Source: a virus. Taken from it: 26,567 nucleotides of DNA. Position 1 is the stretch's first letter; each line of letters opens with the position of its first letter. The notes beneath the pieces were generated by a model. The model was not told where the DNA came from and did not search any database. It saw only the letters and a list, made by a program, of their open reading frames with translations. The translations under genes were made by a program, and so were the position numbers. Shown here piece by piece: positions 4,123 to 26,567 of the stretch. The stretch is from the IMG/VR virus record IMGVR_UViG_3300046007_012202, positions 1 through 26,567 of that record; one strand, given 5' to 3'.

Positions 4123-5142
4123 ATGAAAAAATTTGATTGGAATGACATCACAATAATACCAGATACTCTGAGTACTATTGCTTCTCGTAGTGAGATAAAT
4201 CCATTACAAAATGGAAAACTTCCTATCTTTACCGCACCAATGGATATGGTTATTGATGAAAATAACATATCCGAATTTGAATTAAACAATGTAAACGTTT
4301 GTTTACCGAGAAATGTTAAATTCGATAGTTTAAAGAATGATAATTACTTCTATTCTTACGGACTTGATGAAATTATTGAGTTATTCGAGTCTGATAAAGA
4401 GCTACCTAAAAAAGTGCTAATTGACGTGGCTAACGGCCATATGCTAAAACTTTGGGAAATCTCTAAGAGAATAAAAGAGAAATACGGTAATAACATTGAA
4501 CTAATGGTTGGTAATATTGCTAATCCAGAAACTTACAGAAAGTATTGTGAGATTGGTGTTGATTGGATCAGGTGTGGCATTGGTGGAGGATCTGCCTGTA
4601 CTACATCAGCAAATGTTTCAATACATTTTCCAATGGCATCATTAGTAAATGAGTGTTATGAAATATCTAAAGAGTTTGATAATCCTACTAAAATCTTGGC
4701 AGATGGTGGATTTAGAAGCTTCTCTGATATAATTAAAGCATTAGCACTTGGTGCTCATGCTTGTATGTTAGGTGGAATATTCAACAAATGTTTAGAAAGT
4801 TGTTCTGATAACTTCTTAAAAGATTCTGTTGGTATATTTCATTTAATAGATGAAGAACGTGCAATCGCTAATTTTAATAGTGGTATAGATGTTTGGAAGT
4901 ATTATAGAGGAATGTCAACAAAAGAAGTTCAGAAGTCTTGGAATAGGAAAGAACTTAAAACCGGTGAAGGTATTTCTAAATACAATAAAGTAGAATACAC
5001 TTTATCTGGATGGAGAGAAAACTTTACTGATTATTTAAGATCCGCAATGTCTTATTCTAATAGTAGAACTTTAGAAGAGTTTATTGGTCAAGCTAACTGG
5101 GTTAAAATATCACAGAATTCTTTTGATAGATTTAACAAGTAA
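4123..5142 (+). CDS. IMP dehydrogenase/GMP reductase family enzyme without CBS domains
   Basis: A 339-residue TIM-barrel enzyme of guanine nucleotide metabolism. Family marks in order are 'FDWNDITIIP' at the N-terminus, 'PIFTAPMDMV' (34-43), the catalytic loop 'CGIGGGSACTTS' with the thioimidate Cys at residue 159, the phosphate-binding 'ADGGFRSFSDIIKALALGA' and 'MLGGIF', then 'YYRGMSTKE'. Length and the absence of a Bateman (CBS) insert favour GMP reductase (about 346 residues, GMP to IMP) over standard IMPDH. 'CTTS' replaces the usual 'CTTR', and the 'FYGMSSE'-like segment matches GMPR. The direction of the reaction is therefore not settled. It follows the 101-residue gene without a gap and ends at a shared terminator. 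Confidence 0.85.
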   Translation: MKKFDWNDITIIPDTLSTIASRSEINPLQNGKLPIFTAPMDMVIDENNISEFELNNVNVCLPRNVKFDSLKNDNYFYSYGLDEIIELFESDKELPKKVLIDVANGHMLKLWEISKRIKEKYGNNIELMVGNIANPETYRKYCEIGVDWIRCGIGGGSACTTSANVSIHFPMASLVNECYEISKEFDNPTKILADGGFRSFSDIIKALALGAHACMLGGIFNKCLESCSDNFLKDSVGIFHLIDEERAIANFNSGIDVWKYYRGMSTKEVQKSWNRKELKTGEGISKYNKVEYTLSGWRENFTDYLRSAMSYSNSRTLEEFIGQANWVKISQNSFDRFNK

Positions 5143-5145
5143 AAG

Positions 5146-5172
5146 AAAACCACTCAAATGAGTGGTTTTTTT
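5146..5172. terminator. Bidirectional terminator between the GMPR/IMPDH-like and ferritin genes
   Basis: AAAACCACTC (5146-5155) pairs with GAGTGGTTTT (5160-5169) over AAAT, followed by T's on the plus strand and preceded by A's. It serves the convergent genes on both sides. Confidence 0.88.
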
Positions 5173-5173
5173 A

Positions 5174-5716
5174 TTAGAAGTATGTTTGTTCAAAATAAAG
5201 AACTTCAAACTTATTCTCGTGATTTACTAATGTTATAGCATTTAATAAATCTGAATATTCTGCAACTGCATCATTTTGAATATTAACATAACTTTGAATA
5301 AAATTAAATGTTGCAGGATGAGTATTAAGAGATAATTTTTGAGCATCTGAATATTTTCCAAAAAGACCAAATTCCATTTCATATGCTAGTCCAACAATCT
5401 CAACTAAACCATTGAAATTTTTTGTAGTTGGTGCTTGTGTGATAACTGGAAGTAAATTCCATTGAGTTAAATAATCTTGAAGACCTTTGGCATGTTCTAA
5501 TTCTGAACTAGCTTCAGCTTCAAAAAAAGAAGCCGCTTTTTTATAATTCATATTCTTAAACCAATTTGCAGCATTTCTATAGAAATAATGTGCGGCATAC
5601 TCATCACCAATTCTATCATTTAACAATTCTTCGATAACCTCAGAAAAAAAAGTAAAAAAAAATGGAAATAAAAAAGTTTGGAACTCAGCCAGAAATTCAA
5701 CCAGAAGTTGAAACAC
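5174..5716 (-). CDS. Ferritin-like iron-storage protein with an abnormal 5' end
   Basis: The four-helix ferritin core is clear: 'DEYAAHYFYRNAANWF' (helix A, first Glu ligand), 'EAEASSELEHAKGLQDYL' (helix B, E-x-x-H ligands), 'YEMEFGLFGKY' (helix C Glu) and 'FNFIQSYVNIQ' (helix D, with the conserved Gln but Ile for the usual adjacent Glu). It reads like bacterial non-haem FtnA and would oxidise and store ferrous iron in the cytoplasm. The start is a problem. The core begins at about 'SEVIEELLNDRI', but upstream in frame there is only a Phe-rich stretch over two T runs, with no ATG; the first in-frame starts are GTG 5716 (used here) and TTG 5626. A plausible plus-strand ORF occupies the same bases. 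The gene may be truncated, fused or misassembled. Confidence 0.72.
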   Translation of the reverse strand: MFQLLVEFLAEFQTFLFPFFFTFFSEVIEELLNDRIGDEYAAHYFYRNAANWFKNMNYKKAASFFEAEASSELEHAKGLQDYLTQWNLLPVITQAPTTKNFNGLVEIVGLAYEMEFGLFGKYSDAQKLSLNTHPATFNFIQSYVNIQNDAVAEYSDLLNAITLVNHENKFEVLYFEQTYF

Positions 5717-5781
5717 AAATGGAAGGTGGTATAGTTAAGCATAATGTTCTTCCTGATCTATATATAAATTTTACAAAATAA
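5662..5781 (+). CDS. Possible 39-residue protein antisense to the ferritin 5' region
   Basis: Plus-strand ORF starting MEIKKFGTQPEIQPEVETQM and ending YINFTK, with A- and purine-rich codons like real genes here, whereas the minus reading of the same DNA is Phe-rich junk. It is directly preceded by a stop and A runs, and ends before the minus-strand gene at 5790. It has no recognised family. It may be a real small gene inserted in front of the ferritin, or the inverted end of another gene. Evidence is composition and position only. Confidence 0.35.
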   Translation: MEIKKFGTQPEIQPEVETQMEGGIVKHNVLPDLYINFTK

Positions 5782-5789
5782 ATTCTCTA

Positions 5790-6569
5790 CTAGCGTTTAA
5801 CCATTATAAACCAAGAACTATTACTTTGTGCCTTGATTTCTTCTTCAACTTCTTTATATTCTGCCTGACCTTGTGTAATTAAGTTAGCATGATTTATCTT
5901 AACACCACCGGGTAATGAAAAGTCGTACATTCCTAACATATTTCCTAATTGAACTTTAGTCCAACCAACAACATACTTATAGAATAAATCATCTTTAAAT
6001 AAGTTTTCTTGTGGAATGTTAGCATAAGCTTCCATAATAACATCATAATTGACTTTTGTTAAGATATGAAGTCTATGGTTAAGTTGATTAAATGAATACT
6101 TTAAAGTGTATTTATTTAGCTGGTTCAACATATCTGACATCGAATCTAACATTGTTTTGTAAACTCCTAACTCTCCAATTGTTGTAACATAAGAAGATAA
6201 GTAAGGTTGATTAGTAACCCCTAAGTTTACTGATAAGTTTGGTGTATTAATACCTAATTGAAATAAAGATTGTCCTCTAACTTCATATAAATAAACAACT
6301 GATTGTATTTCACAAGGAACGGTTACGTAATTATATTTAGTAAACTCTTCAGTAGTAAATGCTTCTTTTTTAACAAGAAAATACATTTTTTGTACGGCAT
6401 ACTGATACCATCTATAAAAGTAAGGAAGTGCTCTAGATTCAATTATTTGACGTATATTTGCATCGGGCATTGTTTTAGGTAAAGCACAAGATACACTTAT
6501 TTCTGTTTGAATTGAGTCTATAAATTCTTCTATTGTTAAACCACCTTGAAAAGGAATATAATCTGCCAT
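5790..6569 (-). CDS. Probable virion structural protein (unknown)
   Basis: 259 residues, soluble, with no signal peptide or transmembrane segment. Distinctive parts are an N-terminal stretch with 'SCALPKTMPDANIRQII', an aromatic-rich helix 'PYFYRWYQYAVQKMYF', a central Asn/Leu/Tyr-rich region, and a C-terminus 'LPGGVKINHANL' followed by an acidic helix and 'SNSSWFIMVKR'. I recall similar arrangements in tail, neck or head-completion proteins of large T4-like phages, but I cannot name the family, so the role is an inference. A TTTTAATATATA element lies 21 nt before its ATG, inside the spacer of the divergent host-type promoter for the 6642 gene, which suggests timed expression from a shared control region. 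Confidence 0.5.
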   Translation of the reverse strand: MADYIPFQGGLTIEEFIDSIQTEISVSCALPKTMPDANIRQIIESRALPYFYRWYQYAVQKMYFLVKKEAFTTEEFTKYNYVTVPCEIQSVVYLYEVRGQSLFQLGINTPNLSVNLGVTNQPYLSSYVTTIGELGVYKTMLDSMSDMLNQLNKYTLKYSFNQLNHRLHILTKVNYDVIMEAYANIPQENLFKDDLFYKYVVGWTKVQLGNMLGMYDFSLPGGVKINHANLITQGQAEYKEVEEEIKAQSNSSWFIMVKR

Positions 6570-8946: not shown

Positions 8947-9456
8947 TTATTTACTTAAAACGATCTTTGGATATCTAAATGGTTTACCATTTAATGAATA
9001 ACCTTTAGTCACAACATCAATGATTTTATTCTCACCTGTTTCTAATACAGAGATTACTTCATGTAAATCCTCATCATAGGTATCAGTTTGAATTGGTTCA
9101 ATACCTTGATTTTTCAAAAATGTTTCTAATTTTTGTGCAATAAGTAATAAACCTTTATCAACTTTTTTCATTGATTTTATAGCAATAGTTACATCACTAT
9201 CCATATCTAATACAGCTGATAACATTTTAGTTTTAGTATTTAATACTAATTCTTCTTTTTCTTTTTGAACTCTTCTTTTGTAGTTTTCAAAATCTGCATA
9301 CAATCTAACATGCTTGTCTTCTGCTTCTTTCAATTGGTCCTCTAACACTGAAACATGTAATCTTGGATTATCTTCTAAAATAATCTCTTTATTTACATCT
9401 ACACCAGTTAAATCAAGACCAATGTTCTTTTCTTTTTTCATTTCTTTTTCTTCCAT
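8947..9456 (-). CDS. grpE: GrpE nucleotide exchange factor
   Basis: Releases ADP from DnaK to restart the chaperone cycle. At 169 residues it has the family layout: a charged N-terminal tail, a long coiled-coil helix ('VLEDQLKEAEDKHVRLYADFEN'-type, about 36-60, containing the hallmark 'RLYADFENYKRR'), a four-helix dimer part ('GLLLIAQKLETFLKNQGIEP'), and the C-terminal beta domain ('YDEDLHEVISVLETGE', 'VVTKGYSLNGKPFRYPKIVLS'), which matches the GrpE signature G-[YW]-x-L-x-G-K-x-x-R-x-x-x-V. It is slightly short at the N-terminus. It is separated from the upstream gene by 1 nt and from the next by 3 nt. It partners the DnaK at 14044. Confidence 0.94.
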   Translation of the reverse strand: MEEKEMKKEKNIGLDLTGVDVNKEIILEDNPRLHVSVLEDQLKEAEDKHVRLYADFENYKRRVQKEKEELVLNTKTKMLSAVLDMDSDVTIAIKSMKKVDKGLLLIAQKLETFLKNQGIEPIQTDTYDEDLHEVISVLETGENKIIDVVTKGYSLNGKPFRYPKIVLSK

Positions 9457-10002: not shown

Positions 10003-11076
10003 ATGGATAGGAAGTTAAGAATTGAGGAAATGCAGAATAAAATAGATAATCTATCATTAGATTTTAAAGTTATTGAATACAACGGATATGGTAAAAAAAG
10101 TAAATTTCAACATTCTTGTGGATATGAATTTGATATTAGAATAGATCATCTATTAAATAGAAAGGTATGTCCTAAATGTAATGGTAGAAAATATGACATA
10201 GAAGACTTTCAAAATAAGTCTAATCTAGTACATAATAATCAATATGAGGTTATTGACTTTAAAGGAACTAATTTTATTGCAAAAGTTAAACATTTAATAT
10301 GTGGTAACATTTTAACACAAAGAGGTTGTAATCATTTAAGAGGTGATGGTTGTCCTTATTGTTATGGTAATAAAAAATATACTAAAGAAGAAATATTAAA
10401 AATTAGTAGAGAAAAGTGGAATAATGAATATACGATACTATCCGAAAATGTAGAATATAATAAGAAGTCAGTAATACTACATAATACGTGTGGTAATAAA
10501 TTTGAGCAAGTAATATATCATCATTTATTAAAAGGTGGTTGTAAGTTTTGCGCTGGTAACAATAAACATACAATTCAAAGTGCACAAGAAAAGTCAGATA
10601 AAATTCATAATAATGAATACATTATTTTATCAGAACCAAAAGGTTCATTTAGTAAAATTAAAATAAAACATAAATTATGTAATAATAATTTTTATCAAGT
10701 TTTAGATACACATATAAGGGGGTGTGGTTGTCCTAAATGTAATACTAGCAAAGGTGAGAAGTATATTGAAAAATTACTTACTGATAACAATATTGAATTT
10801 GAGACACAAAAATATTTTAATGAGTGTAAATATAAACAAAAATTAAGATTTGACTTTTATCTACCAAAATATAATATATGTTTAGAATATGATGGAATAC
10901 AACATTATAAATCGGTTAAATGGTTTGGTGGCAAACCCGCTTTTGAACTACAAAAAATCAAAGATAATATTAAGAATGAATATTGTATTAAAAATAATAT
11001 ACAACTAGTTAGATTTAGATATGATAATAAATTTGAAAAAATTTCGGAAGATCTTAAAAAAATACTATCTTTGTAG
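10003..11076 (+). CDS. Free-standing homing endonuclease, zinc-finger repeats plus Vsr-like nuclease
   Basis: 357 residues. The N-terminal two thirds hold four tandem treble-clef-like zinc units of the form H..CG..F......CPxC (around 'HSCGYEF...VCPKCNGRK', 'LICGN...GCPYCYGNK', 'NTCGNKF...GCKFCAGNN', 'KLCNNNF...GCPKCNTSK'), which would bind the DNA target. The C-terminal domain 'LRFDFYLPKYNICLEYDGIQHY' and 'QLVRFRYDN' matches EDxHD/Vsr-type (I-Bth0305I-like) nuclease cores, with D, E, D and H in place. It is free-standing, with no intron or intein around it. It lies between divergent genes; its last codons contain the promoter box of the next gene. Confidence 0.82.
   Translation: MDRKLRIEEMQNKIDNLSLDFKVIEYNGYGKKSKFQHSCGYEFDIRIDHLLNRKVCPKCNGRKYDIEDFQNKSNLVHNNQYEVIDFKGTNFIAKVKHLICGNILTQRGCNHLRGDGCPYCYGNKKYTKEEILKISREKWNNEYTILSENVEYNKKSVILHNTCGNKFEQVIYHHLLKGGCKFCAGNNKHTIQSAQEKSDKIHNNEYIILSEPKGSFSKIKIKHKLCNNNFYQVLDTHIRGCGCPKCNTSKGEKYIEKLLTDNNIEFETQKYFNECKYKQKLRFDFYLPKYNICLEYDGIQHYKSVKWFGGKPAFELQKIKDNIKNEYCIKNNIQLVRFRYDNKFEKISEDLKKILSL
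11066..11073 (+). promoter_or_regulatory. TAnnTTTG box of the 11092 gene, inside the end of the endonuclease gene
   Basis: TATCTTTG ends 18 nt before the ATG at 11092. The upstream -33 position reads TTTCG rather than TTTG, so the match is partial. The box overlaps the last codons of the homing endonuclease. Confidence 0.5.
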
Positions 11077-12990: not shown

Positions 12991-13824
12991 CTAGATTTTA
13001 TATTTCCATATAAACCCTGCATAAGTTTCCTTATCACCTTTACAACATTTTGCAATTTGACTTCTACTCATTGTAGTATCAATCCTCTCAATCTCTCTTA
13101 AACTTTTCCATTCTTTAACTAAATTCATATCTAAATCATATTGTAGGATCTCACTTCGTTTTATCTTAGTTCCCTTTATACTATTTCTCAATTTCTCCTT
13201 TTGTTCTTCCGTTCTAGGTTTTCGATTACCTACATTTTTAGGATTATTTAATTTAGCCATTCTTAATTTCTCATTATGTTCATCTGTCATTTTTAGTCCA
13301 TATGCCCAATGATTTTCTTTATCTTCAAAATACTCTCTAAGAGTATTGCTTATCTTCTCTCTAACTAATGGATCATTACTTTTATTAGGGTTATTTAATT
13401 TAATTCTTTCTGAATAGTACTCCTTTAACTCGATTGATTTTTCTAAGCCAACAATTTCCTCAAGAGTCTTACCTTTTTTAGAACTAGAAATTTTATTTCT
13501 AGTTTCTACCGAGGATTCAGTAACATCAGTAACATGTGAATTGGTCAATCTACAGCCATCATTTGTTAAGTTCTCAACATAAATTCTCTCTAATTTATTA
13601 GATTCTTCAAAAGAATTACAACTATCTACTATATTCATGATAGGTAATGAATTATTATTAACTAATTTTCTTACCCATCTTGCTTTATATGTATCATATG
13701 ATTCGGAATTTTCATTTATAGATGATGAAATATGATCGTTAAATCTTCTTTTAGGTTCGTTGGTTTGACCAACATATCTTATTTCCATTGTAGAAGGATC
13801 CGATAATGTATAAATATATCTCAT
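12991..13824 (-). CDS. GIY-YIG free-standing homing endonuclease
   Basis: 277 residues. The N-terminal nuclease domain has 'YIYTLSDP' and 'RYVGQTNEPKRRFNDH' (the GIY and YIG strands appear as YIY and YVG, followed by the catalytic Arg region), and 'NKLERIYVE' supplies the metal-binding Glu. The middle carries NUMOD3-like segments ('KISSSKKGKT', 'KISNTLREY', 'KLRNSIKGTK'), and the C-terminus is a NUMOD1-type helix-turn-helix ('ILQYDLDMNLVKEWKSL', 'AKCCKGDKETYAGFIWKYK'). It would cut a cognate site and spread by repair. It is free-standing, placed between dnaK's control region and the 12576 gene. Confidence 0.9.
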   Translation of the reverse strand: MRYIYTLSDPSTMEIRYVGQTNEPKRRFNDHISSSINENSESYDTYKARWVRKLVNNNSLPIMNIVDSCNSFEESNKLERIYVENLTNDGCRLTNSHVTDVTESSVETRNKISSSKKGKTLEEIVGLEKSIELKEYYSERIKLNNPNKSNDPLVREKISNTLREYFEDKENHWAYGLKMTDEHNEKLRMAKLNNPKNVGNRKPRTEEQKEKLRNSIKGTKIKRSEILQYDLDMNLVKEWKSLREIERIDTTMSRSQIAKCCKGDKETYAGFIWKYKI

Positions 13825-17322: not shown

Positions 17323-17595
17323 TTATAAATTTTTTATTGATGTATTTGGTTTTGGTGGCATTATAATTGTTGAGTATCCTCCTTGTCCTAATCCTATCTT
17401 ATCTTGTATATCATTTACAAAAACTTGTGGTACTTTACCACTATCTTCATATTCTACCATCATCTCTGCATAAAAATTCATAAGATTATTTATTTCTATT
17501 GGTCTTAAATTAAACTTCTTTAGAATAGAAATAACTTCATTCTGATAATCATCATCTGAATAACCGAACCCTTCAAATCTTTTTATATATTTCAT
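17323..17595 (-). CDS. MK-tagged 90-residue protein, candidate internal head protein
   Basis: Begins MKYIKRFEGFGYSDDDYQNE, then a mostly helical body ('VISILKKFNLRPIEINNLM') and a Gly/Pro-rich end. It shares the MK-x-I-K-x-F-E tag. TTTTAATATATA lies 6 nt before the ATG. It is the first gene of a minus-strand pair with the 187-residue tagged protein. The family is unknown; packaging into the head is inferred from the tag only. Confidence 0.72.
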   Translation of the reverse strand: MKYIKRFEGFGYSDDDYQNEVISILKKFNLRPIEINNLMNFYAEMMVEYEDSGKVPQVFVNDIQDKIGLGQGGYSTIIMPPKPNTSIKNL

Positions 17596-18573: not shown

Positions 18574-18618
18574 TATATAAACATACCAATAACATTGGAT
18601 ATAAATTATTACAAAAAT

Positions 18619-19638
18619 ATGTATAGTATTGAAGATATTAAAGAAGTTTGTTTATCAGACAAACATGTATTAAAAATTAAAAGTGAAATAACTAAAAATG
18701 GTATGTTAGACCACCTGATAAACTTGTATTCATTTTTTAATAATAAAAGTATATCACAGATAATATGGCATTTTAAAAATGATATTTATGATGATATTAA
18801 ATGTATCTGTTCCAAAAGTGTAAGATATATTGATATAAATAAGGGATATGTTAAATATTGTTCTAATAAATGTCAATTAAATGACTATTGGAGTAATATT
18901 TCTAATGATGAAATAGAAAGGAGAATAATAAAGACTAAGAAAACTTGTAAAGAGAAATATGGAGTTGAAAACTTCAATACACTAGATATTATAAAAGAAA
19001 AGACTAAGAAAACTAATAATGAGAAATATAATTCTGATTATCATCTAAAAACAGATAAATCAAAACAAATGATTAAAGATAATCTTAATAATAAATATGG
19101 TGTTGATAATGTGTCCAAATTAGAACATGTCAAAATAAAAAAGAAGAATAAGTCTTTACTTAAAACAGATGAAGAAAAACTCTTAATAAGAGAGAAATAT
19201 AAGAATACTATTCTTGAGAGATATGGAGTAGAACATTTAAGTCAGGATTCTGATTTTTTAGAAGAATTATTAAAAAAGTCATTCAGTTATAAATCTCACA
19301 GATTACCAAGTGGTAAAGTTATATCTTTACAGGGTTATGAACCTAAAGTTATTGATTATCTATTGAAGTATTATGATGAAGATGATATACTATATACCAA
19401 TAAATCAATTGAGAATAAAATAGGTAAAATATTTTATCAGAATATTGACAAAATATCAAGATATTTTCCAGACTTATATATAATTTCAGAAAATAAGATA
19501 GTAGAAGTTAAGAGTACATTTACCTATGATTTAGACATAGGTAAAAATATGTCTAAAAAAGAGGAATGTTTGAAAAGAGGAATAAAATTTGATTTTATTA
19601 TTTATGATAATATAAACAATAATTTTATAATTAAATAA
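18619..19638 (+). CDS. Putative homing endonuclease with zinc knuckle, DUF723-like repeats and PD-(D/E)XK core
   Basis: An N-terminal zinc-binding part ('CICSKSVRY...KYCSNKCQ') is followed by repeated segments ending 'EKYGVENFN', 'EKYNSDYHL', 'NKYGVDNVS' and 'ERYGVEHLS', the DUF723-type DNA-binding units of free-standing phage endonucleases. The C-terminal 'YFPDLYIISENKIVEVKSTFTY' supplies a PD...ExK nuclease core. The ATG at 18619 is used; an in-frame TTG at 18595 would add eight residues. It lies between uvsE and a small gene on the same strand, close enough (46 nt from uvsE) to be co-transcribed. Specificity is unknown. Confidence 0.75.
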   Translation: MYSIEDIKEVCLSDKHVLKIKSEITKNGMLDHLINLYSFFNNKSISQIIWHFKNDIYDDIKCICSKSVRYIDINKGYVKYCSNKCQLNDYWSNISNDEIERRIIKTKKTCKEKYGVENFNTLDIIKEKTKKTNNEKYNSDYHLKTDKSKQMIKDNLNNKYGVDNVSKLEHVKIKKKNKSLLKTDEEKLLIREKYKNTILERYGVEHLSQDSDFLEELLKKSFSYKSHRLPSGKVISLQGYEPKVIDYLLKYYDEDDILYTNKSIENKIGKIFYQNIDKISRYFPDLYIISENKIVEVKSTFTYDLDIGKNMSKKEECLKRGIKFDFIIYDNINNNFIIK

Positions 19639-19954: not shown

Positions 19955-19983
19955 AAAAATCCACCCTAAGGTGGATTTTTTTA
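19955..19983. terminator. Bidirectional terminator between the 19646 gene and argH
   Basis: AAAAATCCACC (19955-19965) pairs with GGTGGATTTTT (19970-19980) over CTAA. It ends both convergent transcripts. Confidence 0.9.
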
Positions 19984-21315
19984 TTTACATAAACTTTCTA
20001 TAGCTTTATCAACCTTATCAAAATTAAACTTCTCAATTATTAGTTGCATTTGATTTCTTATTTGTTCATTACATAAGTTACCAATACTTCCTTCATGAGT
20101 ATGATTAGTTGTCTTATTATCAAAATTATACTTACCCGATTCTATGTTATCACCAACTTCTCTATAAGCATCTCTAAAACTTTTTCCTTGTAAAACTAAA
20201 TTATTTACCTCTTCAACCGAGAATAAATATTTATATCTTTCATCATTAAGTATGTCTTTATTTACAGATATTTGTTTAAGTGAGTAGTTACTTATTTGTA
20301 AACAATCAATCAAATCATCAAACGCTGGCATAAAACTTTCTTTAATCATTTGTAAATCTCTGTGATATCCAGATGATAAATTAGTTGTTATTAGTGTTAT
20401 TTCATAAGAAAGAGAACTTAATTTATTACATTTAGCTCTTACCAACTCAAAAACATCTGGGTTTTTCTTATGTGGCATAATACTTGATCCAGTTGTAATC
20501 TCATTAGGTAACTTCATAAAGTCATAATTTTGATTAGTAAACAAACATACATCCTGTGACATCTTACTTAAAGTTTGTGCAATTGAAGAAATAGCTTGTG
20601 ATACAATTCTTTCTACTTTACCTCTACCCATTTGAGCATAAACAACATTATAATTTAATGTATCAAATCCTAATAATTCAGTTGTTAAAGTTCTATCTAA
20701 TGGAAATGAAGATCCATAACCAGCCGCAGAACCTAATGGATTCTTATTAGTAATTTTATAAGCTGCTTCAAGTTGTGTTAAATCATCAATTAAACTTTCT
20801 GCCCAACAAGCAAACCAAAGTCCAAATGAAGATGGCATTGCAACTTGATAGTGAGTGTAACCAGGCATCATAACATCTTTATACTTTTCACTAAGCTCAA
20901 TAAGTGTATTAAAAAGTTCTTCACTTATATTTACTACTTCTGTTATTTTATCACGAATAAATAGTTTTAAATCTAAAAGAACTTGGTCATTTCTGGATCT
21001 ACCACTATGAATTTTTTTACCAATCTCGCCTACTCTTCTAGTAAGAAGAAGTTCTACCTGTGAATGAACATCTTCTACATTTTCTTCTATTTGAAAATTA
21101 TTATTTTTAATCTCATCTAAGATAATTAAAAGTTCTTTTTTAAGAATATCATGCTCTTCTAAAGTTAGAAGATTAATACTCTGTAACATCTTTATATGTG
21201 CTAGTGATCCAATTACATCAAACTTAGCCATCATTAAATCCATTTCACGATCTTTACCTACAGTAAATCTCTCAATCTCTTTACTTGTGTCAAATCCTTT
21301 AGTCCAAAGTTTCAT
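19981..21315 (-). CDS. argH: Argininosuccinate lyase
   Basis: Cleaves argininosuccinate to arginine and fumarate, the last step of arginine synthesis. It is full length at 444 residues, with the family blocks 'MKLWTKGF', 'EDVHSQVE', 'HSGRSRNDQ' (103-111), 'PGYTHYQ' (catalytic His at 155) and the signature 'GSSIMPHKKNPD' (276-287) with the catalytic Ser. 'VYAQMGRGK', 'MPHKKNPDVFELVRAKCNK' and 'THEGSIGNLCN' are, from memory, typical of Bacteroidota ArgH, so recent capture from the host group is likely. No active-site residue seems lost. It follows the amidohydrolase gene by 14 nt in one operon. ArgH is highly unusual in a phage; an altered substrate (another succinyl adduct) cannot be excluded. 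Confidence 0.95.
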   Translation of the reverse strand: MKLWTKGFDTSKEIERFTVGKDREMDLMMAKFDVIGSLAHIKMLQSINLLTLEEHDILKKELLIILDEIKNNNFQIEENVEDVHSQVELLLTRRVGEIGKKIHSGRSRNDQVLLDLKLFIRDKITEVVNISEELFNTLIELSEKYKDVMMPGYTHYQVAMPSSFGLWFACWAESLIDDLTQLEAAYKITNKNPLGSAAGYGSSFPLDRTLTTELLGFDTLNYNVVYAQMGRGKVERIVSQAISSIAQTLSKMSQDVCLFTNQNYDFMKLPNEITTGSSIMPHKKNPDVFELVRAKCNKLSSLSYEITLITTNLSSGYHRDLQMIKESFMPAFDDLIDCLQISNYSLKQISVNKDILNDERYKYLFSVEEVNNLVLQGKSFRDAYREVGDNIESGKYNFDNKTTNHTHEGSIGNLCNEQIRNQMQLIIEKFNFDKVDKAIESLCK

Positions 21316-21329
21316 ATGTTAAATTTTTT

Positions 21330-22286
21330 TTATAGTCCTAAAACTTGTAATCCATTTTTTGTTGAAATCTCTGACAGAATATCAACATTATAAATTTTGC
21401 ATGCTTCTAATAAAACCTTTATTTCTGTCCACATATCACCATCACCAAATGGTTTATAAACATCATTAATATTATCAGTACCAATTGCTACTTTAATACC
21501 CCAGTCGATCATTTCATCTACTGGTGTTATAGAATTATGACTTGGTGCCAATCTCTCAGTTCTTGGATGATCTATCCAAGCAATAGGACAAGAGATAACA
21601 CTTAAATCTGCTTCTTTCATTAATCTATAAATGTCTTGACGTTTTTCTTTAATATGTGCACCAACTGATATAGAATGTATTGCAGTTACCATTCCTTCCA
21701 TACCCCATTGAATTGTTTTCTTAGCAAGTAATTCAGTTTCACTTTCCTCAGAAGTATTGAACTGGTCAACATGAACGTGAACTCTTTTATTTAATCTTTT
21801 ACCAGCTTGTAAGATAATATCTAAATGTTTTTCTTCATTACTAGCATCTTTTGCAGGTAAACCACCAATAATATCAACAAAATCAAGTGATCTATCAAAC
21901 CAGTATTTTGCATCTTTATCAATAACACCTTTAAGTGTTTGATTAACAAACTTCATTTTTATTTTATCATCCCACTTACTTCTAAGCATCTCTGCTGCAA
22001 ATATTGCCTTATCTTCAATTGCTTCATCAACATCAATAAAACTTCCAAATGCTTGACATCCTTGAGATACCATTAATTCTGTTGCCTTCTGCATACGCAA
22101 AAAAATATCCTCAACTGAGGAACTTCGTTTTAGTGTATCAACAATTGACCACTTCTTTTGTAATTCAGAGTAAATATGCTTTACAGAATCTTCATCTAAT
22201 GAAAATGCTCTGTCAAAATGTGCATGTGTATTTACCCAACCTCCATTTAATTTAATTTGATTCTCTAATTTGTCCCTTAAATTCAT
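21330..22286 (-). CDS. Metal-dependent amidohydrolase, cytosine-deaminase-like
   Basis: 318 residues of the amidohydrolase TIM barrel: 'THAHFDRAF' (H21, H23), 'VHVHVDQFN' (H172), 'TAIHSISVGAH' (H204), 'SCPIAWIDHPR' and 'IGTDNINDVYKPFGDGDMW' (D261). The motif wording is closest to cytosine deaminase and related hydrolases. It lacks the usual beta-sandwich made from sequence before the HxH and after the barrel, so it is a barrel-only form. The substrate is unknown: a nucleobase (cytosine to uracil) would suit a phage, but pairing with argH raises the possibility of an arginine-pathway or amino-acid derivative. The start is the first ATG; a TTTTTAATATAA-like stretch lies about 15-25 nt upstream. 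Confidence 0.82.
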   Translation of the reverse strand: MNLRDKLENQIKLNGGWVNTHAHFDRAFSLDEDSVKHIYSELQKKWSIVDTLKRSSSVEDIFLRMQKATELMVSQGCQAFGSFIDVDEAIEDKAIFAAEMLRSKWDDKIKMKFVNQTLKGVIDKDAKYWFDRSLDFVDIIGGLPAKDASNEEKHLDIILQAGKRLNKRVHVHVDQFNTSEESETELLAKKTIQWGMEGMVTAIHSISVGAHIKEKRQDIYRLMKEADLSVISCPIAWIDHPRTERLAPSHNSITPVDEMIDWGIKVAIGTDNINDVYKPFGDGDMWTEIKVLLEACKIYNVDILSEISTKNGLQVLGL

Positions 22287-22780: not shown

Positions 22781-22808
22781 AAAAGAGGACTATTTGTCCT
22801 CTTTTTTC
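22781..22808. terminator. Bidirectional terminator between the 22405 gene and the thioesterase
   Basis: AAAAGAGGAC (22781-22790) pairs with GTCCTCTTTT (22796-22805) over TATTT. The thioesterase stop codon (22792-22790) lies at the edge of the stem. Confidence 0.9.
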
Positions 22809-23257
22809 TTTTTATTTCTTTCGATAACCATTTCCTCTGGGGTTAGTAAACCTCTACCAAACAATTTAACTCTATCATCATATCTTTTCTTAACTCTTTC
22901 TGAAATCGGTACTGGTGCTCCTTCATCATCAATTCTAACAAATACCATTTTAGTTGAACAAACTAAATCTTGAACTCCTGTGTAAACATTATGTTTTCTC
23001 GCTTCAAGATTGATTGTAATAGATGTATTACCTATATTCTCAACACTTCCATATATCTTAATTAAGTTACCAGTTTTAACTGGTCTTTGAAAAATTACTT
23101 CTTCAATTTTCTTTGTTACCATTCTTGGTGTATCACAAATCTGACAGCAATAAACTGCAGCAGACTCGTCTAAAATTGACATCATTTCACCGCCAAATAA
23201 ATTTCCATGTACTCCTATCTGTGAGGCCATACATACTCTTGTTGTAATTAGTTCCAT
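22790..23257 (-). CDS. Acyl-CoA thioesterase, YciA-like hotdog fold
   Basis: Hydrolyses acyl-CoA to free acid and CoA. The 155 residues have the hotdog signature 'GVHGNLFGGEMMSILDESAA' (N19, D30), then 'VIFQRPVKTGNLIKIYGSVE' and 'FVRIDDEG', as in YciA and cytosolic long-chain acyl-CoA thioesterases, and a lysine-rich end. It lies 4 nt after dCMP deaminase in the nusG-led transcript. Its role in a phage is unclear: it might alter host lipid or CoA pools, or release an acyl group from a modified product. Confidence 0.88.
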   Translation of the reverse strand: MELITTRVCMASQIGVHGNLFGGEMMSILDESAAVYCCQICDTPRMVTKKIEEVIFQRPVKTGNLIKIYGSVENIGNTSITINLEARKHNVYTGVQDLVCSTKMVFVRIDDEGAPVPISERVKKRYDDRVKLFGRGLLTPEEMVIERNKKKKEDK

Positions 23258-25964: not shown

Positions 25965-26567
25965 CTATCCTGCGAATCTATTATTCTTCGCAAGATTCTC
26001 AAACGCACTCAAAGGTTGAAAGTTTGTATAGTGATTTAGTTTATAAACTTCTTCTTCACTCTTTGCCCAAGATATAGGAATTATATGGTCCAAATGCCAA
26101 TAAGTTCCGTGATTATTCCAAAACATAAATTCATCAAATTTTTCCTCGATATATATTTTAAAATCTTCATAAGAACAACCAAGTATATCATAAGTTCTTG
26201 ACTTTTTACTAAAACCCTGTTTTTTAATTGATTCTTTAATTCGATTTCTTATAGAATGTGATAGTTTGAATAATGGATCATCTAACATTTTTTGTCTTCG
26301 ATAATTATTTATATTGTCCCTATTCAACCTTCTATATTCCTTTCTCTGTTCTTTTATTATATCTTTATTTAACTCTCTATACTCTTTACTTTTTTGTTTT
26401 ATCTTATCTTTATTTAAAAGATTATATAACTTTTTATTCTCTTTATTACGTATTCTGTACTCCTTTTGTTGTAATTCAATTTTATCTTTATTTTTCTTCT
26501 TATTCTCATTATTTATAACATTTGTACATATTTTACAATAGGCAGACATTTTATTATTTTTAAATGT
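25965..26567 (-). CDS. HNH homing endonuclease (5' end beyond window)
   Basis: The reading frame stays open to the right edge: upstream of the ATG at 26549 it reads TFKNNK, joining naturally to 'MSAYCKICTNVIN', where homologues usually have an earlier CxxC. The true start is therefore probably outside the window. The middle is a long charged helix of roughly 14-residue repeats ('KEYRIRNKENKK', 'KEYRELNKDIIK', 'KEYRRLNRDNIN'). The C-terminus has the HNH core 'WHLDHIIPISWAKSEEE' and 'NFQPLSAFENLAKNNRF'. It is a fourth homing-endonuclease family in the window, next to rnh, a common type of target gene. Confidence 0.85.
   Translation of the reverse strand, partial: TFKNNKMSAYCKICTNVINNENKKKNKDKIELQQKEYRIRNKENKKLYNLLNKDKIKQKSKEYRELNKDIIKEQRKEYRRLNRDNINNYRRQKMLDDPLFKLSHSIRNRIKESIKKQGFSKKSRTYDILGCSYEDFKIYIEEKFDEFMFWNNHGTYWHLDHIIPISWAKSEEEVYKLNHYTNFQPLSAFENLAKNNRFAG

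Follow-up and report, generated by a model that had tools for sequence, protein, structure and literature searches.

What has become of the start of a ferritin gene whose conserved core carries no start codon? The question is raised by a viral contig of 26,567 nucleotides (IMG/VR record IMGVR_UViG_3300046007_012202; the whole of it is called the window here), in which minus-strand positions 5174-5644 form an open, intact ferritin core frame (PF00210, E 2e-19; 70.3 bits against a curated Pfam cut-off of 24.5). A first-pass annotation had observed that this core lacks an ATG, that the same frame upstream of it translates into a phenylalanine-rich stretch and that a 39-residue ORF is read on the plus strand, and all three observations held. 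No ATG occurs in the core frame upstream to the first stop; the only alternatives in frame are GTG 5716 and TTG 5626, the latter already inside the core, and the window contains no complete, translatable ferritin gene with a start codon. The plus-strand ORF (5662-5781) overlaps the place where the ferritin start should be. By its length alone, an ORF of 39 codons is no better than chance; it is sequence homology that lifts it above this level. The features of the locus are listed in Table 1.

As explanations, the first-pass annotation had proposed a rearrangement junction, the insertion of a small gene over the start of ferritin or an assembly error in homopolymers, and it had called for a comparison with related phages. 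We collected 25 related ferritin loci from viral_contigs, corresponding to 22 distinct proteins, and in all 25 the arrangement was straight, with an in-frame ATG leader on the strand of the core. The closest relatives were L002 and L003 (core identity 90%), the former from the 385-kb record G001. The first 32 residues of the plus-strand ORF matched the N-terminus of the L002/L003 ferritin (65% identity, E 3e-6; tblastn, collected loci), and the DNA of the ORF region matched the relatives at 78% over 118 columns (E 4e-21; 7e-20 in a repeat search). By blastn, window 5166-5641 corresponded to G001 128402-128877 (88%), and window 5645-5756 to the abutting stretch 128876-128993 on the opposite strand (78%). 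This arrangement of the two pieces was found again when the comparisons with G001 and L002 were repeated, and also against G006. Because both pieces match abutting stretches of relatives on opposite strands, we conclude that the plus-strand ORF is the ferritin's own inverted 5′ end, and we regard it as almost certain that the inversion involves the leader of this very gene. The frames of the two pieces join at a codon boundary that fits L002, and the A runs are the A-rich stretch just 5′ of the leader ATG, seen from behind. The suspicion of a rearrangement junction was well founded, two such junctions bounding a short inversion.

Table 1. Coordinates of features at the ferritin locus of the window
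Feature	Position	Strand	Remarks	Evidence
IMP dehydrogenase / GMP reductase-like gene	4123..5142	+	one border of the site	PF00478, E 1e-37
Hairpin terminator (ACCACTCAAATGAGTGGTT + T run)	5149..5174		gap between IMPDH-like gene and ferritin; also at empty site of L066	sequence
Ferritin core without leader	5174..5644	-	begins at helix A; no in-frame ATG	Pfam, A2 alignment, solved-ferritin alignment, AF2 of L002
Whole ferritin insertion	5177..5795	-	window 5176 and 5796 only 44 bp apart in L066	comparison with empty L066 site
Cys29 to Phe, Pro69 to Thr	5558-5560 and 5438-5440	-	core residues 29 and 69	invariant in 18 other aligned ferritins
Possible fallback start TTG	5624..5626	-	GAGG (5641-5638) 11 nt upstream	sequence only
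Inverted microhomology, left copy TCAG	5640..5643			sequence, alignment
Inverted segment (A-rich 5′ flank and leader codons)	5644..5752 (5640-5756 including shared bases)	+		blastn to L002/G001
Ferritin leader codons, n=31 (MEIKKF... to ...NVLP)	5662..5754	+	opposite strand to core	65% identity to L002 N-terminus
Inverted microhomology, right copy CTGA	5753..5756			sequence, alignment
Fortuitous ORF tail past breakpoint	5755..5781	+		outside L002 match except shared GA
Neck / head-tail adaptor gene	5790..6569	-	other border of the site	phrog_211 head-tail adaptor Ad2, E 9e-14

With its 39 open codons, its ATG and the A-rich sequence upstream, the plus-strand ORF might be taken for an independent small gene lying over the ferritin start. 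However, its first 31 codons are the ferritin leader by both DNA and protein homology, its last eight are without a match in L002, and no convincing match was found in phage records (best E 0.7). We give this reading very little credence: what had appeared to be an inserted gene is the ferritin leader reversed. Even less probable is that sequencing errors in the two T runs just upstream of the core mask a normal minus-strand ATG. The true start codon and leader are on the other strand, and since the missing codons sit there, changes in the length of A or T runs cannot restore the start.

We regard it as very likely that about 110 bp, comprising the A-rich flank and the 31 leader codons, were inverted in place between TCAG and CTGA, which would have moved the leader to the plus strand as the 39-codon ORF and left the minus-strand core without an ATG. 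The inverted segment is single-copy with two clean junctions, and microhomology of at least 4 bp occurred in only 2.6% of 200,000 random 109-bp segments of the window. Rather than a switch, we infer a one-off mutation that arose by template switching or by microhomology-mediated break-induced replication; the likeliest account is that a mutation mediated by microhomology decapitated the ferritin gene. Human-chimpanzee microinversions, in the excerpted text of PMC8755829, are flanked by inverted repeats of 3-75 nt, and the same two processes are given as their cause. The inversion in the window is like those of the excerpt in being clean and single-copy with a short inverted repeat at its edges. 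It is unlike them in length (~110 bp versus 17-33 bp), in its host (phage versus primate) and in that one ancestral flank is not comparable: the window and L002 have different neighbours 5′ of the leader, and gain or loss of bases at that junction is beyond comparison. An inversion driven by a hairpin was considered and rejected, as the single strand 5620-5775 folded no better than shuffled sequences (z 0.70).

Both junctions are known from one contig, and a 28-mer of the inverted segment had no match in other viral contigs, a search from which near-identical records may have been absent. The inversion might stem from the library or the assembly, if a chimeric molecule with an inverted piece, generated for example by multiple displacement amplification, dominated a stretch of low coverage. 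Inverted chimeric (palindromic) reads are known from amplification (PMC13265396, excerpt), the microhomology is only 4 bp at both breakpoints, and the contig is a fragment of 26.6 kb, compared with the 385-642 kb reached by related records. However, palindromic chimeras keep both arms, whereas the window has the segment once and two clean junctions would be required; by reasoning, an assembler would also need junction-bearing reads to flip a segment across 4 bp. Apart from ferritin, the conserved genes of the contig have their full length, and there was no further convincing inversion. Among 30 other window ORFs tested, 27 were matched in nine compared records, 24 of these over at least 95% of their length; shorter matches were obtained for 8947-9456 (78%), 10003-11076 (80%) and 22790-23257 (90%). 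Among the compared records, abutting matches on opposite strands were convincing at the ferritin site only. One other candidate, a 44-bp match of 6849-6892 in L066 and L068, looks palindromic and coincides in part with a normal match. On balance, we consider an artefact unlikely, and an inversion in real phage DNA rather than in a chimeric library molecule probable.

The ferritins of this group are like the bacterial non-heme ferritins (FtnA type; PF00210; 1eum, 3bve, 5c6f) in having a four-helix core, a short fifth helix and the ferroxidase ligands. Core identity to the top matches, ferritins of E. coli, Vibrio and Helicobacter, was 23-29%, and 526 PDB chains matched an AF2 model of L002 at E ≤ 0.001, with E. 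coli and Vibrio ferritins at the top. One scan of bacterial genomes with exact-peptide patterns confirmed no relatives, so that solved structures provide the basis for the comparison with cellular ferritins. Annotated phage records gave no match to a ferritin query, a literature search on phage ferritins returned nothing usable, and the ferritin of PMC10013915 is, in the excerpt of that paper, a bacterial gene. Solved ferritins have no more than a few residues ahead of the core; in the phage forms, a leader of some 10-70 residues precedes it. The L002 model assigns low confidence to residues 1-23, which is what a disordered tail would give, and its helix A runs from residue 34, the position of the breakpoint. 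By this model, the window core keeps all helices and is without its normal start.

The predicted coincidence of one edge with the start of helix A, and of the inverted unit almost exactly with the supposedly disordered leader, would also suit an invertible switch, in which a recombinase flips the leader to turn a tagged ferritin on and off. The inverted repeats at the edges are just 4 bp, however, long repeats were not found, and the serine and tyrosine recombinase families (PF00239, PF00589) were found in neither of two records, the window and G001, both of which may be incomplete; positive controls for this search succeeded in 10 of 14 and 14 of 14 genomes. Because neither long inverted repeats nor a recombinase was found, we conclude that the inversion is not a switch; with the inverted state also seen in none of the 25 relatives, such a switch is highly improbable.

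As a consequence of the in-place inversion, we would expect the gene to be inactivated or cut to a truncated core initiated at TTG 5626. This TTG is possibly the best fallback start, and its use would cost the protein the first residues of helix A. A second ferritin copy that could serve as a backup was found neither in the window nor in G001. The core itself keeps E15, E48, H51, E91 and Q123 (core numbering), which are invariant in the A2 alignment, align with the solved ferritin 5c6f and which we take to be the ferroxidase ligands. Of 35 columns that do not vary among the 18 other sequences of the alignment, two are changed in the window core (C29F and P69T); these two otherwise invariant residues and the leader inverted away set the window copy apart from FtnA-type ferritins. 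When the 18 were scored likewise, 13 showed no break at an invariant column and three showed one, while the distant L020 and L022 showed four each. The two changes hint weakly at relaxed constraint or decay of the window core; the signal is two residues only, and the more distant L020 and L022 break more columns.

The lost leader belongs to a recurrent type. The loose pattern M-x(1-3)-[FILVYM]-x-x-[FY] fits 18 of the 22 distinct ferritins, a count that none of 2000 shuffles equalled (mean 1.14), and 14 of 18 when leaders sharing their first eight residues are counted once; the misses are the more distant L020, L022, L024 and L025. Because the pattern was drafted after the sequences had been seen, shuffles overstate its strength. 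In G001, 42 of 454 ORFs begin with a strict form (MK-x-[FILVY]-x-x-[FY]), versus 3 of 1812 internal Met positions, and 116 of 454 begin with the loose form (shuffle mean 48.8). In a 48-kb stretch of T4 with 56 CDS, the strict form retrieved ipI, ipII and ipIII only. The loose form retrieved nine CDS, six of which are not internal proteins, so that specificity is confined to the strict form. The leader of the window (MEIKKF) matches the loose form but not the strict one.

The locus between the neck and IMPDH-like genes is a variable, putative cargo site that holds ferritin as an insertion, and in relatives it is filled mostly with leader-bearing genes. L066, 82-93% identical to the window in the stretches common to both, has an empty site. 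G001 308-345 kb is for the most part collinear with the window; the exception is ferritin, whose G001 copy lies at 128 kb. A scan with the neck gene found 17 loci, and ferritin was absent from the stretches examined in all of them; in G001 and L072 the site is occupied by a cold-shock-like gene (named by eye). In L007, ferritin lies within 2.4 kb of a neck gene, but on its other side. The interval between the borders was counted in 12 loci in which the two borders could be mapped or approximated: L027, L028 and 10 of the 17. Left out were three copies sharing the match pattern of L073 and four loci without an IMPDH border. Of the 33 distinct ORFs that fill these intervals, 22 start with the loose leader pattern (shuffle mean 3.5, maximum 9) and 15 with its strict form. 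The remainder are GIY-YIG-like endonucleases (by eye), cold-shock genes and genes with leaders narrowly missing the pattern.

In L069 (6777-9527), L071 (1563-4134) and L078 (6794-9145), the neck-IMPDH interval is filled by small genes in tandem, about four to seven per array; nearly all of these genes begin MKHLK/MKYIK...F/YNE, and the arrays look like a fast-changing cargo locus. Dispersed copies of the window terminator were considered as exchange sites and rejected: related records repeatedly show short matches to the region of the terminator, but the window has a single copy of the exact 19-mer and G001 has none. Three ORFs of the window were unmatched in the nine compared records (17323-17595, 19981-21315 and 21330-22286); argininosuccinate-lyase-like and amidohydrolase-like genes (by eye) make up 19981-22286. 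Free-standing homing-endonuclease-like genes (GIY-YIG, HNH or similar, by eye) stand between conserved genes at 10003-11076, 12991-13824, 18595-19638 and 25965-26549. Next to ferritin in L002, at 4363-4893 (G001 128988-129518), there is a DUF5856 gene, annotated as starvation-inducible, whose leader (MKKFSDF) is of the same type as that of ferritin. In G001, the head maturation protease domain is N-terminal in a 712-residue protein (L047 12744-14882; G001 32744-34882), and in six of eight records searched the S77 match falls within an open frame of 660-769 residues, which exceeds T4 gp21 by far; these long proteins are possibly protease-scaffold fusions.

The internal proteins IPI, IPII and IPIII of T4 are targeted to the capsid and processed by the gp21 prohead protease. 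The phage leaders are like the T4 capsid targeting sequence in being short N-terminal peptides with a hydrophobic residue followed three positions later by F or Y (T4 ipI begins MKTFKEF, the L014 ferritin MKTFKHF), and in being common to many otherwise unrelated proteins. They are unlike it in that many begin with ME, MQ or MS instead of MK. For the T4 sequence, 10 residues suffice and residues 4 and 7 are the most important for targeting (PMC9026906, excerpt); judged by the loose form, the window leader has a hydrophobic residue at about position 4 and an aromatic one at about position 7, within the first ~10 residues. The cleavage motif L/I-X-E was present in 13 of the 22 relatives (shuffle mean 8.0; 30 of 2000 shuffles reached 13) and absent from the leader piece of the window. 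G001 encodes a T4-type major capsid protein (PF07068), portal (PF07230) and head protease (phrog_207). A somewhat wider pattern yielded 70 leader proteins, of which 53, picked by eye to leave out those crossing a stretch border or resembling chance fits, were scanned with Pfam. Ferritin, NUDIX, polyA polymerase, DUF5856, ankyrin and other domains were each found in one member, a diversity that would suit a detachable targeting peptide, but some leader proteins resemble enzymes expected in the cytoplasm. That the lost ferritin leader was a T4-type capsid-targeting peptide is, in our view, a tentative but realistic possibility. A literature search found no paper linking ferritin to a capsid targeting sequence.

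Taken alone, the inversion is unremarkable: an ordinary mutation, or possibly an artefact. It matters because it exposes the nature of the leader, apparently a detachable, disordered peptide of a kind that many other genes of these phages also carry and that is similar to the tag that loads proteins into the T4 head. The rearrangement possibly points to a family of head-packaged ferritins. More speculatively still, large T4-like phages may use the leader to load ferritin into their capsids, so that an iron store or an iron-detoxifying cage would enter the host along with the DNA; the neck-IMPDH interval would then be an exchange site for packaged cargo, and the window a natural knock-out with ferritin cut off from the virion. 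If ferritin is virion cargo, these phages would bring iron-handling cages into the cells they infect, which would bear on the interplay between phages, iron and oxidative defence.
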